64,000 nt of DNA from Acidimicrobiia bacterium. Its GTDB lineage: Bacteria > Actinomycetota > Acidimicrobiia > IMCC26256 > JAMXLJ01. The stretch spans positions 1 through 64,000 of the forward strand of contig DASRES010000090.1 of assembly GCA_035651955.1 (NCBI GenBank), given 5' to 3'. The notes below the pieces were generated by a model. The model was not told the origin of the DNA and made no database searches. It saw only the letters and a program-made list of their open reading frames with translations. The number at the start of each line of letters is the position of its first letter. Position 1 is the first letter of the stretch. Positions 24,590 through 29,946 of the stretch are shown here, piece by piece. The position numbers and the translations under genes were made by a program.

Positions 24590-24611
24590 CCGCCGTCCCG
24601 CTGCTCGTCCC

Positions 24612-25985
24612 GTGACGCTGCGCTTCGGCACCGACGGCGTGCGCGGCGTCGCGAACCGCGATCTCACGCCCGAGCTCGTGACCGCGCTCGGACGGGTCGC
24701 GGCACGGGTGCTCGACGCGCGCACCTGGCTCGTCGGGCGCGACACCCGCCGTTCCGGGACGCTCCTCGAAGCCGCGCTCGTCGCCGGACTGTGCGCGGAG
24801 GGCGTCGACGTCGTGAGCGTCGGCGTGCTGCCGACGCCGGGTGTCGCGTACCTCTCCCAGGTGGACGCGCTCCCGGCCGCGATGATCTCGGCGAGCCACA
24901 ACCCGTTCCCGGACAACGGCATCAAGCTGTTCGCGCCGGGCGGCCGGAAGATCCCCGACGACACCGAGCGTCGCGTCGAGCACCTCCTCGCCGCGCTCAT
25001 CGGCGACCCCAACGGCGCGACCCCGGACCGGCACGCGCCCGACGGCGAGGACGTCGGCGCGTGGCGGACCGAGCCGTCCGCGTCGCAGCGCTACGTCGAC
25101 CACCTCGCAGCCACGCTCGAAGGACGGACGCTCGAGGGGCTGCACGTCGTCGTCGACTGCGGCAACGGAGCGGCGTCGGTCGTCGCGCCCGCCGCGTTCC
25201 GAGCGCTCGGCGCGCGCGTGACCGTCCTCAACGACACGCCGGACGGGACGAACATCAACGCGGCGTGTGGCTCGACCGACCCGTCCGCGTTGCAGCGCGC
25301 GGTCGTCGCCGAGCACGCCGACGCGGGGCTCGCGTTCGACGGCGATGCCGACCGGGTGATCGCGATCGACGAGCGCGGCGAGATCGTCGACGGCGACCAG
25401 GTGCTCGCGATCCTCGCCCTCGACCTCGCGCAGCACGGGCGACTCCGCCACGACGCGCTCGCCGCCACGGTGATGTCGAACCTCGGCCTTCGGCGTGCAC
25501 TGCACGAGCACGGCATCGAGCTCGTCGAGACCGCGGTGGGCGACCGCAACGTGCTCGTCGCCATGGACGAGCGCGACCTCGCGCTCGGCGGTGAGCAGTC
25601 GGGGCACGTGATCCTCGCCGACCACGCCACGACGGGCGACGGCACGCTCACGGGCATCGTGCTCCTCGACGTCGTGCGCCGGTCGGGCCGCCCGCTCTCG
25701 GACCTCGCCGGCGTCATGACGCGCCTGCCGCAGGTGCTGCGGAACGTCCGGGTGTCGGACAAGACGATCCTCGACGGCGATGGGGCCGCGACCGTTCGTG
25801 ACGTGATCCGCGCCGTGGAGGACGAGCTCGCCGACGACGGGCGCGTGCTCGTCCGGGTGTCGGGCACGGAGCCGGTCGTGCGCGTGATGGTCGAAGCGAC
25901 CACCGAGGCGCGTGCCCAGCAGTGCGCGGACCGCCTGGTCGACGCGGTCACGGGCCTGGATCGGGCTCCGCTGCAGGGCATCTAG
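24612..25985 (+). CDS. glmM: Phosphoglucosamine mutase GlmM
   Basis: Converts glucosamine-6-phosphate to glucosamine-1-phosphate for peptidoglycan; 457 residues. FGTDGVRGVANRDLTPEL opens the protein. The phosphoserine loop MISASHNP puts the catalytic Ser at 95. The Mg loop FDGDADRVIA and sugar loop GGEQSGHVI follow, and RVSGTEPVVRVMVE binds phosphate near the end. GTG 24612 gives the family N-terminus. Its next neighbour is the glmS-like gene, so successive steps are encoded together. Confidence 0.97.
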   Translation: MTLRFGTDGVRGVANRDLTPELVTALGRVAARVLDARTWLVGRDTRRSGTLLEAALVAGLCAEGVDVVSVGVLPTPGVAYLSQVDALPAAMISASHNPFPDNGIKLFAPGGRKIPDDTERRVEHLLAALIGDPNGATPDRHAPDGEDVGAWRTEPSASQRYVDHLAATLEGRTLEGLHVVVDCGNGAASVVAPAAFRALGARVTVLNDTPDGTNINAACGSTDPSALQRAVVAEHADAGLAFDGDADRVIAIDERGEIVDGDQVLAILALDLAQHGRLRHDALAATVMSNLGLRRALHEHGIELVETAVGDRNVLVAMDERDLALGGEQSGHVILADHATTGDGTLTGIVLLDVVRRSGRPLSDLAGVMTRLPQVLRNVRVSDKTILDGDGAATVRDVIRAVEDELADDGRVLVRVSGTEPVVRVMVEATTEARAQQCADRLVDAVTGLDRAPLQGI

Positions 25986-25990
25986 ACTGA

Positions 25991-26044
25991 CCCGACCCGG
26001 GGGGCACCCGTCGCGCGCGGCGGGTCGGGCTGGGACCCGTCCCA
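25991..26044 (+). promoter_or_regulatory. Two hairpins in the leader of the glmS-like gene
   Basis: CCCGACCCG (25991-25999) pairs with CGGGTCGGG (26021-26029) in a 9-bp stem. Directly after it TGGGA (26031-26035) pairs with TCCCA (26040-26044) beside the AGGAG ribosome site at 26044-26048. The second stem could hide that site. I could not fit the glmS ribozyme core to this sequence, so this is not called a ribozyme. Confidence 0.45.
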
Positions 26045-26056
26045 GGAGCCAGCTTC

Positions 26057-29000
26057 ATGTGCGGAATCATCGGCGTCGTCCGCCGGCCCGGTCGGCGCGT
26101 CTCCCCGTCGCTCGACGATCTCGCCGCGCGCCTGCGCGCCGCCCGTGACGACCTCGACCTGGCGGGCAGAGGGCTCGCCGTCGACACGCTGACGCGGGCC
26201 GCCGAGCACGTCGAGCACGTCGACGGCGCGCTGCGGGGGACGCCGGGGGTCCGGGCGCTGCTGCGTCAGGGCACCGCGGCCACCGAGGTCGGCGCGCTCG
26301 CGGCGGACGCGTCCCGACGGCTCGACTCGATCGAGCGTGCCCTCGACCGCGGTGACGTCTCCGCCGGCGCGTCGGGCTCGCTCGAGCAGCTCAACGCAGC
26401 CATCGTGCGGTGCAAGGACGCGCTGTGGGCCGTCGCCCGCGACCGCCTGCGCACGGCGCGCGCGGTGGCGGAGCTCGCGTCCGGCTTCGAGCTCGGCGAC
26501 GGCGCGGTCGAGGTGCTCACGTCCGTCCAGGTCGCGCTGTCCGCGATCGACCGGCTGGAGGTGCGCGGTCGCGACTCGGCCGGCCTGCACCTGCTCGTCC
26601 GCGACCACGCGCTCGACCTCGACGACCCGACGATCGCGCGGCTCGTCCACGAGCGGGAGGCCGACCCGCTGTTCCGGGCCGGTGCCGTGCGCATGCCCGA
26701 CGGGCTGCTCAGCGTGGTGTACAAGGCCGCCGCGGAGATCGGCGAGCTCGGCGACAACGTCGCGGCGCTCCGCGCCCAGATCGCGTCCGACTCGCTGCTG
26801 CATCTCGCGCTCGCGAGCGACGACGCGCGCGCGACGGTGCTCGGCCACACGCGCTGGGCCAGCGTCGGGATCATCTCCGAGGCGAACGCGCACCCGCTGA
26901 ACAGCGACGTGGTGCGGACGCCAGGCGGCGCGCGTCGCGCGTACGTCACGGCCGCGCTCAACGGGGACGTCGACAACCATGCCGACCTCCGCGTGCTGGA
27001 GGGGCTGGACATCGCGTCGGAGATCACGACCGACGCCAAGGTCATCCCGACGCTCGTGTCGCACCGGGTGGACAGCGGCCTGTCGGTGGACGACGCGTTC
27101 CGCGCCACGGTCGCGTCGCTCGAGGGGTCGGTCGCGATCGCCGCGAGCAGCGCGGCCGAGCCCGACACGCTGCACCTCGCACTGCGGGGTAGCGGGCAGG
27201 CGCTGTACGTGGGCCTCGCCGAGGACTGCTACGTCGTCGCGAGCGAGCCGTACGGACTCGTCGAGGAGACGTCCGTGTACCTCCGCATGGACGGCGAGAC
27301 CCCGGCCAACCCGGACAACCCGACGGCGAGCCGCGGGCAGATCGTCGTGCTCGACGGCTCGCACGCCGGAACCGTCGAGGGCATCCGCCGCACGGGCTAC
27401 GACGGCACGCCGTTGCCGGTGTCACACGACGACCTGACCCGGGCCGAGATCACGACACGCGACATCGACCGGGGGGACGCGCCGCACTACCTCCTGAAGG
27501 AGATCGGTGAGGCGCCGTCGTCGTTCCGCAAGACGCTCCGCGGCAAGCTGGTCGAGCAGGAGGGTCGCGTGCGCGTCGCGCTCGGCGACGAGACGTTGCC
27601 GCCGGACGTGCGCACCCGGCTGCGCGACGGCGAGATCCGACGCGTGCTCGTCATCGGCCAGGGCACGGCCGCCGTGGCCGGCCAGAGCCTGGCGACCGCG
27701 CTGCTGGACGCGCTCGGCGACGACCGTTGCCTCGACGTGCGCGCGATGCCGGCGACGGAGCTCTCGGGCTTCGGCCTCGCGGGTGACATGCGGGACACGC
27801 TCGTCGTCGCGATCAGCCAGAGCGGCACTACGACCGACACGAACCGGACCGTCGACCTCGTGCGTGCGCGCGGCGCGGCGGTCGTCGCGATCGTCAACCG
27901 CCGCAACAGCGACCTGACGGATCGATGCGACGGCGTCCTGTACACGTCGGACGGGCGCGACGTCGAGATGAGCGTCGCGTCGACGAAGGCGTTCTACGCG
28001 CAGATCGCGGCGGGCTTCCTCCTCGCGTTCGCGATCGTCGACGAGGTCCGCAGCGGCCGTGACGGCGCCGACGGCGCGCCCGTGGTGCCGGACGACCTGC
28101 TGCAAGCGCTGCGCGAGCTCCCCGACGCGATGACTCGCGTGCTCGCGCAGCGCGCCTCGATCGCGGGGGCCGCGCAGCGGCACGCGCCCGGACGGCGGTA
28201 CTGGGCCGTCGTCGGCAACGGCGCGAACCGCATCGCCGCGCACGAGGTGCGGATCAAGCTCTCGGAGCTCTGTTACAAGTCGATCGCCTGCGACGCGACC
28301 GAGGACAAGAAGCACATCGACCTCTCGTCGGAGCCGCTCATCCTCGTGTGCGCGGCCGGTCTGTCGGGCTCCAACGCGGACGACGTCGCGAAGGAGCTCG
28401 CGATCTACCGGGCACACAAGGCCGCGCCGATCGCGATCGCGAACGAAGGTGAGTCGCGATTCCACACCGCGCTCGAGACGATCGAGGTGCCGGCCGTCCA
28501 CCCGACATTCGGGTTCGTCCTGTCCGCGATGGCGGGTCACCTCTTCGGGTACGAGGCCGCGCTCGCGATCGACGCGTCGGCGCTGCCGTTGCGCGAGGCG
28601 CGCGCCGCGATCGAGTCGGTCGCGTCCGGGACCGTCGCCGACGACGACGTGCTCACGGACCTCGCGGACGCGATCGAGCCCCTGGCCGTCCGGTTCTTCG
28701 ACGGGCTGCGCAACGGCACGTACGACGGCGCGATGGAGGCCGCGACCGCGGTGCGCCTCGCCGCGATGTTCCGGTACGCGACCGGGATCGTCCCGCTCGA
28801 TGCGTACCAGGTCGAGTTCGGGAAGGTCGGGACGCCGAGCACCGTGATCGAGGACCTGACTGCCGCGCTGACGAGCGCGATCGAGGAGCTCACGCGGCCC
28901 ATCGACGCGATCAAGCACCAGGCGAAGACGGTGACGGTCGGCATCTCGCGCTCCGACGAGACGCTGCTGCGCGTCCGGCTCGTGCAGGAGGTCCTCGCCG

Positions 29001-29530
29001 CTGGCGTCGCGCGCGACAACCTCAGCTACCGCGCCCTCCGGACGCTCGTGGACCTCGACGCCGCCGTCGCGCAGGTCACCGGCTTCACGCGCTACCGCAT
29101 CGACGGCGACGCCGAGCACGACGACGCGACGATCCACGTCGTCGACCGGGGCGGGCTCGGCGCGCAGCTGCGCTCGCGCACCGACGCCGACCCGCGTCTG
29201 CGGGGCACGAAGCAGCTCGCGGCGGCCGAGCGCGAGGTCACGGTCGCGAAGGGCCGGCGCGACGGCCGGACCGTGATCCTGGTCCCCGAGGTCAAGGGCA
29301 ACCAGACCGTCGGCATGACGCTCCTGCACGTGCGGTTCCACGACCGTCTCGCGCCCGACGTCGCGCGCGGCGTGCTGATGGGCTACCGCCACCGCTACGC
29401 GGCGCTGAAGGGCGCGGTGACCGAGGTCGAGCCGACGTTCGCGGACGCGGTCCTCGGCGAGATGGACGTCGCCGACCTCCTCACGCAGCCCGTCTACGTG
29501 CTCGCGGAGCGGTGGCGGACGCCGGCGTGA
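26057..29530 (+). CDS. glmS: Double-length GlmS-like glutamine amidotransferase / SIS-domain protein
   Basis: 1157 residues, against about 610 for glutamine:fructose-6-phosphate aminotransferase. Met1-Cys2-GIIGVV gives the class II amidotransferase nucleophile Cys2. RGRDSAG comes only at 170 and GHTRWASVG at about 263 (His264), while in E. coli they lie near 26 and 71, so about 190 residues of mostly helical sequence are inserted in the glutaminase domain. SIS domain 1 has ISQSGTTTDT (587-), and SIS domain 2 has EVRIKLSELCYKS and DKKHIDLSS. After it come about 250 residues with no counterpart in normal GlmS, ending MDVADLLTQPVYVLAERW. The place after glmM makes it the likely GlmS; exact activity is inferred. 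Confidence 0.8.
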   Translation: MCGIIGVVRRPGRRVSPSLDDLAARLRAARDDLDLAGRGLAVDTLTRAAEHVEHVDGALRGTPGVRALLRQGTAATEVGALAADASRRLDSIERALDRGDVSAGASGSLEQLNAAIVRCKDALWAVARDRLRTARAVAELASGFELGDGAVEVLTSVQVALSAIDRLEVRGRDSAGLHLLVRDHALDLDDPTIARLVHEREADPLFRAGAVRMPDGLLSVVYKAAAEIGELGDNVAALRAQIASDSLLHLALASDDARATVLGHTRWASVGIISEANAHPLNSDVVRTPGGARRAYVTAALNGDVDNHADLRVLEGLDIASEITTDAKVIPTLVSHRVDSGLSVDDAFRATVASLEGSVAIAASSAAEPDTLHLALRGSGQALYVGLAEDCYVVASEPYGLVEETSVYLRMDGETPANPDNPTASRGQIVVLDGSHAGTVEGIRRTGYDGTPLPVSHDDLTRAEITTRDIDRGDAPHYLLKEIGEAPSSFRKTLRGKLVEQEGRVRVALGDETLPPDVRTRLRDGEIRRVLVIGQGTAAVAGQSLATALLDALGDDRCLDVRAMPATELSGFGLAGDMRDTLVVAISQSGTTTDTNRTVDLVRARGAAVVAIVNRRNSDLTDRCDGVLYTSDGRDVEMSVASTKAFYAQIAAGFLLAFAIVDEVRSGRDGADGAPVVPDDLLQALRELPDAMTRVLAQRASIAGAAQRHAPGRRYWAVVGNGANRIAAHEVRIKLSELCYKSIACDATEDKKHIDLSSEPLILVCAAGLSGSNADDVAKELAIYRAHKAAPIAIANEGESRFHTALETIEVPAVHPTFGFVLSAMAGHLFGYEAALAIDASALPLREARAAIESVASGTVADDDVLTDLADAIEPLAVRFFDGLRNGTYDGAMEAATAVRLAAMFRYATGIVPLDAYQVEFGKVGTPSTVIEDLTAALTSAIEELTRPIDAIKHQAKTVTVGISRSDETLLRVRLVQEVLAAGVARDNLSYRALRTLVDLDAAVAQVTGFTRYRIDGDAEHDDATIHVVDRGGLGAQLRSRTDADPRLRGTKQLAAAEREVTVAKGRRDGRTVILVPEVKGNQTVGMTLLHVRFHDRLAPDVARGVLMGYRHRYAALKGAVTEVEPTFADAVLGEMDVADLLTQPVYVLAERWRTPA

Positions 29531-29946
29531 ACCACGCCGCGGACGGCGCCGCAGACACGGGCGCGGCCGGGGTCGTCGTCGGGCTCGGGACGGACGTCGT
29601 GGAGGTCGAGCGGTTCCGGCTCGCGATGCAGCGCCGGGGCGCGCGGCTCGAGGAGCGTCTGTTCAGCGAGGCCGAGCGCGAGTACGCGCGAACGCATCGC
29701 GACCCCGCGCCGCGCCTCGCGGCACGCTTCGCGGCGAAGGAAGCGGTGATGAAGGCGCTCGGCGCCGGGCTCGGCGACCTGGCGTTCCGCGACGTCGAGG
29801 TCGTGCGCGCGTCGAGCGGCGCGCCCGACCTCGCGCTCACCGGCCGCGCCGCCGCGCTCGCCCGCTCGCGCGACGTGCATCGCTGGCACGTCTCGCTCTC
29901 GCACACCGGCACGACCGCGATCGCGGTCGCGCTCGCGCTCGCATGA
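29527..29946 (+). CDS. acpS: Holo-acyl-carrier-protein synthase
   Basis: Transfers phosphopantetheine from CoA to acyl carrier protein; 139 residues. VVGLGTDVVEVERFR has the Mg Asp, and ARFAAKEAVMKALGAG the catalytic Glu region. WHVSLSHTGTTAIAVALA ends the fold. GTG 29527 overlaps the preceding stop (GTGA); GTG 29512 is an alternative with a slightly longer N-terminus. Streptomyces also has acpS between glmS and the NAD(P)HX repair gene. Confidence 0.93.
   Translation: MNHAADGAADTGAAGVVVGLGTDVVEVERFRLAMQRRGARLEERLFSEAEREYARTHRDPAPRLAARFAAKEAVMKALGAGLGDLAFRDVEVVRASSGAPDLALTGRAAALARSRDVHRWHVSLSHTGTTAIAVALALA

Follow-up and report, generated by a model that had tools for sequence, protein, structure and literature searches.

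A near-double-size GlmS-like protein with a putative internal catalytic tail appears to serve as glucosamine-6-phosphate synthase in many Acidimicrobiia

The glmS-L locus

Glucosamine-6-phosphate (GlcN6P) synthase, or GlmS, is close to universal, with an architecture that is near-invariant from E. coli to humans. The window examined here, i.e. the whole analysed stretch of 64,000 nucleotides from an Acidimicrobiia genome, carries an intact gene, glmS-L, whose product has full-length relatives and is nearly twice the usual size of GlmS, as the initial annotation had recognized (Table 1). It had also placed the gene, correctly, in the glmS position after glmM: the gene adjoining glmS-L upstream matches TIGR01455 with 528 bits and ends 71 nt before the glmS-L start. 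Most Acidimicrobiia loci with the long gene have the order rplM-rpsI-glmM-glmS-acpS-nnrE-alr, and standard glmS in sister families is likewise flanked by these neighbours (glmM-glmS-acpS-nnrE), so that the long gene occupies exactly the position of its standard counterpart. In Planctomycetota and some other Actinomycetota, the long gene stands alone among unrelated genes. No Rfam match to a glmS ribozyme or riboswitch was found in the 20-36 kb portion of the window.

Table 1. Genes and protein features at the glmS-L locus (window coordinates; residue numbers refer to GlmS-L)
Feature	Position	Strand	Remarks
glmM (phosphoglucosamine mutase)	24600..25985	+	upstream neighbour of glmS-L; consumes its product GlcN6P
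AGGAG ribosome-binding site of glmS-L	26044-26048	+
glmS-L, putative long glucosamine-6-phosphate synthase	26057-29530	+	1157 aa, intact ORF, ATG start
Cys2, N-terminal nucleophile of glutaminase	26060..26062	+	E. coli Cys1; invariant
Insertion 1 (residues ~12-147, ~140 aa)	26090..26497	+	all-helical subdomain, placed after strand 1 and ahead of helix 1 in glutaminase
RGRDSAG (170-176)	26564..26584	+	RGYDSAG / R-loop of GlmS
Insertion 2 (~45-50 aa, within ~183-257)	26603..26827	+	between R-loop and Q-loop; conserved KAAAEIGELGDN
Glutamine-site core	26846..27034	+	HTRWAS 264-269 (Q-loop Arg/Trp), NAHP 277-280, NGD 302-304, TTD 324-326
SIS 1 (525-665)	27629..28051	+	SQSGTTT 587-593, VASTKAF 640-646
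SIS 2 (700-840)	28154..28576	+	K734, E737, H753 = E. coli K485, E488, H504
Insertion 3 (841-945)	28577..28891	+	helical, between SIS2 and tail
Putative internalised C-tail (947-965), RPIDAIKHQAKTVTVGISR	28895..28951	+	K957 (28925-28927) = E. coli K603 (Lys603)
C-terminal alpha/beta domain (1003-1157)	29063..29527	+	PAS/GAF-like strand order
acpS	29512..29946	+	downstream neighbour; 19 nt overlap with glmS-L, provided that acpS starts at the listed GTG

Glutaminase and isomerase domains

Pfam alone recognizes the glutaminase domain and the first SIS domain only, and the TIGR01135 score, 206.8 bits, is about half of the cut-off of 418 bits and does not reach it. Against a profile of 18 standard GlmS proteins, the match (E 1.9e-50) extends over the rest of the glutaminase domain and both SIS domains. 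The E. coli GlmS sequence used for comparison was checked over part of its length, and these stretches agree. The residues of the glutaminase site (C2, R266, W267, N302, G303 and D326) are all invariant across two phyla and those of the isomerase mostly so; two SIS domains, the K734/E737/H753 set and the SQSGTT phosphate loop are all present. The AF2 model of the whole protein (pLDDT 88.7, pTM 0.82) finds its best solved structural matches in full-length GFAT-1 and E. coli GlmS, with target TM of 0.65-0.74, and of 0.85-0.88 for the isomerase. Two substitutions run throughout the long forms, namely E. coli Ser303 of the phosphate site to Ala538 and Tyr28 to Arg172; details of substrate binding may therefore differ.

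The insertion of about 190 residues between Cys2 and His264, described at first inspection, holds up, this span measuring 262 residues compared with ~70 in E. coli GlmS, and it resolves into two insertions, one of ~140 aa before the YRGYDSAG-like motif and one of ~45-50 aa after it. The first of these is the least conserved part of GlmS-L (conservation 0.48, with 0.61 for insertion 3). The KAAAEIGELGDN motif of insertion 2 (residues 222-239; K223, E227, G229, L231-N234 and R239), lying in or beside the added sequence, is near-invariant across two phyla.

The N-terminus differs in a set of divergent Planctomycetota proteins (L196, L202, L203, L206, L209, L210, L213, L216, L219 and others), in which tens of in-frame residues precede the catalytic Cys. 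The latter stands in an ACG, RCG, SCG or GCG context with no start codon at the Cys, and a G[TS]IV..P motif recurs upstream. Judging by these sequences, the proteins concerned would need propeptide cleavage, as in PurF; we found no description of such cleavage for GlmS.

A putative internalised catalytic tail

Every canonical GlmS and GFAT ends in a mobile C-tail (AKSVTVE) that supplies residues to both active sites, a textbook case of coupling between two active sites. Where, then, is this tail in a protein that continues well beyond its second SIS domain? The initial annotation had described a plain extension of about 250 residues at this point; in fact, ~317 residues follow SIS2, compared with ~20 in canonical GlmS, and they contain a segment with the marks of a displaced tail. 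The pattern D..PRNLAK[ST]VTVE, formed by the last residues in canonical proteins, has its counterpart at 949-962, away from the terminus. Because the hhalign local alignment with standard GlmS stops before the tail, the latter was examined by scanning with a profile and by aligning globally. A profile built on the 14 residues that end the canonical proteins matches the window protein best at 949-962, IDAIKHQAKTVTVG, with a score that only 4 of 5000 shuffles reached, and the same segment is the best match in 78/78 sequences. When the standard and long forms were aligned globally with MAFFT, the E. coli tail fell, with no guidance, on this segment too. The core of this region, DAIKHQAKTVTVG (950-962), is an invariant internal segment of GlmS-L with ~195 residues downstream of it: across 57 sequences drawn from two phyla, D950, A951, H954, Q955, A956, K957, T960, V961 and G962 are each replaced no more than once, and HQAK is kept in all 57.

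A tail directly after SIS2 (PLREARAAIE) was considered and rejected, this stretch having no Lys, and distant relatives differ in the residue found at the old tail position. Low confidence (pLDDT below 50) in the GlmS-L model (mean 88.7) is concentrated in residues 950-964, which possibly reflects a mobile loop, the placement of which the model leaves undefined. Taken by sequence, the segment 947-965 would act as the catalytic tail. GlmS-L probably works like GlmS, yet departs from the canonical family in two defining features, the TIGR01135 cut-off and the C-terminal position of the tail.

The C-terminal domain

The stretch added after the tail (residues 966-1157) ends in a domain of its own. 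The last 300 residues have no Pfam or PDB sequence match, which disposes of a fusion with a known second enzyme, and the C-terminal domain in particular matches no Pfam model for PAS or GAF. In the AF2 prediction for residues 858-1157 (pLDDT 92.7, pTM 0.65), the final portion runs through two strands, then helices, then three more strands. In a Foldseek search with the C-terminal part, most of the top 50 matches are PAS, LOV, GAF or dCache domains, all of them weak, the best E being 1.5e-3 with no match under 1e-3, and the top one being a large glutamate dehydrogenase with PAS/ACT segments. Conservation is high (0.68), with G, Y, R and D residues that are invariant across phyla; the invariant or near-invariant polar residues are R1041, K1052, D1069, R1071, E1078, Y1110 and E1123. 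On the strength of the modelled fold, it can be hypothesized that the C-terminal domain may be a sensor.

Could these polar residues instead mark a second active site? A bifunctional enzyme, with the last ~195 residues catalysing a reaction on GlcN6P or in glutamine metabolism, would explain them, but the best folds are sensor domains rather than enzymes, and the gene for the downstream step, glmM, is separate and adjacent; we regard this proposal as unlikely. A more credible competitor, although one that we would still bet against, is a GlcN6P synthase in which the insertions and the C-terminal domain are purely structural, serving oligomerization, channel sealing or docking to partners with no sensing of metabolites. 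It draws on the all-helical nature and modest conservation of insertions 1 and 3, and on the weakness of the sensor-fold matches in a region devoid of Pfam or PDB sequence relatives. What speaks against it is the good conservation of the C-terminal domain, down to residues shared between phyla, and the placement of this domain directly after the putative mobile catalytic tail.

Distribution and mutual exclusion with standard GlmS

The long proteins as first extracted measure 1114-1183 aa, L087 having been dropped for a wrong ORF choice, and full-length relatives in this size range occur in 118 of 296 sampled Acidimicrobiia genomes and 37 of 246 Planctomycetota; a phylum sample of 397 genomes adds nine Actinomycetota outside Acidimicrobiia. 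The window protein and 77 relatives (56-77% identity to it) align end to end, which excludes chance, frameshift and assembly fusion. The notion of a pseudogene, frameshift fusion or assembly artefact, which has nothing but the unusual length in its favour, is refuted by more than 100 intact orthologues of near-equal length, some from closed genomes. In-frame TGA codons in some relatives turned out to come from alignment running past the normal stop (cf. L060). Public MAGs labelled Bifidobacterium breve or Ferrithrix thermotolerans (L108, L144, L117 and L124) carry GlmS-L in the gene order typical of Acidimicrobiia; of these labels, at least those of Bifidobacterium look wrong.

In Acidimicrobiia, standard GlmS scores above the curated cut-off in 160 of the 296 genomes and the long form is found in 118, but both occur together in none (Fisher p 9e-64). 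The best TIGR01135 E-value in long-form genomes is no better than ~1e-76, compared with ~1e-200 for intact standard proteins, and all 14 control genomes score above the cut-off. In the remaining 18 Acidimicrobiia genomes neither form reaches the threshold; the majority of these genomes are incomplete or fragmented. The class members G181 (98% complete) and G148 (95%) yielded neither GlmS form, a PurF-sized match being all that was left. In Planctomycetota, 36 of the 37 genomes with the long form are without standard GlmS (Fisher p 4e-23), both being present in 1/246.

The suggestion made from the window alone, that glmS-L may be the only GlmS of the cell, survives the genome search for a separate standard glmS that had been proposed as its refuting check: the window's genome (96% complete) yielded none, and neither did the closed single-contig relatives G002, G003, G027 and G110, which have the long form only. 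Two other matches in the window's genome were discarded as a second GlmS, both named by eye: the GATase match C81 is PurF, and the SIS match C84 looks like a GmhA-type isomerase.

Both forms were seen in three genomes, Aquihabitans sp. G128 (closed), G336 and G693. In the case of L175 (Aquihabitans sp. G128 chromosome, 1478722-1480530), which lies on a long branch of the tree, the genome has a canonical glmS elsewhere besides the long form in the ribosomal-protein/glmM locus. Such coexistence, together with the Ala538 and Arg172 substitutions and the two Glucosamine_iso-family genes of the window's genome, could be taken to mean that GlmS-L is a paralogue with another substrate, GlcN6P being obtained by reverse NagB or by uptake. 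This is most improbable: GlmS-L is encoded where glmS belongs, with glmM and acpS on either side, canonical glmS is excluded in hundreds of genomes, and the closed G003 genome, itself without canonical GlmS, has no NagB-family gene.

Origin of the long form

A tree built from 597 core columns splits the two forms, long and standard, along one long branch with support of 100; on the long-form side, Planctomycetota are deepest and Acidimicrobiia are nested together with some Planctomycetota. As read from this quick, midpoint-rooted tree with long branches, the topology suggests that the two forms split long ago and that transfer, tentative in its direction, then led to replacement at the existing locus in Acidimicrobiia.

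Function and proposed mechanism

The architecture, conservation, exclusive distribution and locus of GlmS-L are established by computation. What, then, does the enzyme do? Its activity and the function of its tail we infer, and GlcN6P synthase appears by far the likeliest role, given the catalytic residues, the position of the gene, its mutual exclusion with standard glmS and the closed G003 genome devoid of NagB-family genes. Our preferred reading, which we consider probable, is that the gene encodes the GlcN6P synthase of the cell and belongs to a class, GlmS-L, that replaces canonical GlmS, the added parts having most likely an allosteric role.

According to this scheme, glutamine would be hydrolysed at Cys2 and the ammonia would then pass to the SIS site, where fructose-6-phosphate would be converted to GlcN6P and handed to GlmM, the product of the adjacent gene. 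The tail, with K957 in the role of Lys603, would work as an internal loop, with a helical insertion before it and the possibly PAS/GAF-like domain after it, and a metabolite bound to the C-terminal domain might open or lock it, thereby gating ammonia transfer. Metabolite sensing by GlmS-L is put forward here as a conjecture. It is further conceivable, and we offer it tentatively, that GlmS-L represents a phylum-crossing class of GlcN6P synthases with the internalised tail coupled to a sensor domain, that it provides a metabolite-gated entry into cell-wall synthesis, and that it took over the locus of canonical glmS in Acidimicrobiia following a transfer, with Planctomycetota as the probable source.

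In many Acidimicrobiia and part of the Planctomycetota, the sugar unit for building the cell wall appears to be made by an undescribed GlmS of nearly double size; no description of the class was found in the open PMC literature, subscription papers lying outside the scope of the search. At its own cut-off, the standard GlmS model leaves the GlcN6P step unassigned in genomes with GlmS-L. The class would show that, in major environmental lineages, an essential enzyme has given way to a distant relative, and, with the chemistry apparently kept and the tail buried within the chain, it makes the role of the tail directly testable.

Comparison with known systems

Canonical bacterial GlmS (TIGR01135; E. 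coli, PDB 1jxa and 2j6h) has the same domain order (Ntn-glutaminase, SIS, SIS, tail) and shares catalytic residues and gene neighbourhood with GlmS-L, which differs from it by ~550 extra residues in four places and by the internal position of the tail. The best solved structural match, eukaryotic GFAT (human GFAT-1, PDB 6r4e and 6zmj), is likewise a GlmS enlarged by insertion, in this case by a variable loop of ~46 residues (PMC7948480), and GFAT-1 is feedback-inhibited by UDP-GlcNAc (PMC8041777). In contrast to GlmS-L, however, the tail of GFAT is still the C-terminus, and the GlmS-L inserts differ in position and size. The PAS, GAF and dCache sensor domains share with the C-terminal part of GlmS-L the strand-strand-helices-three-strand order and repeated fold matches, but that part lacks a Pfam sequence match and the TM-scores are mostly below 0.45. 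Finally, the large glutamate dehydrogenase L-GDH180 (PDB 7jsr), the top structural match of the C-terminal part, is a housekeeping enzyme enlarged by ACT/PAS-type segments that have been proposed to be metabolic sensors (PMC8175468); it belongs to another enzyme family, and the likeness, confined to the added part of GlmS-L, is weak (E 1.5e-3).
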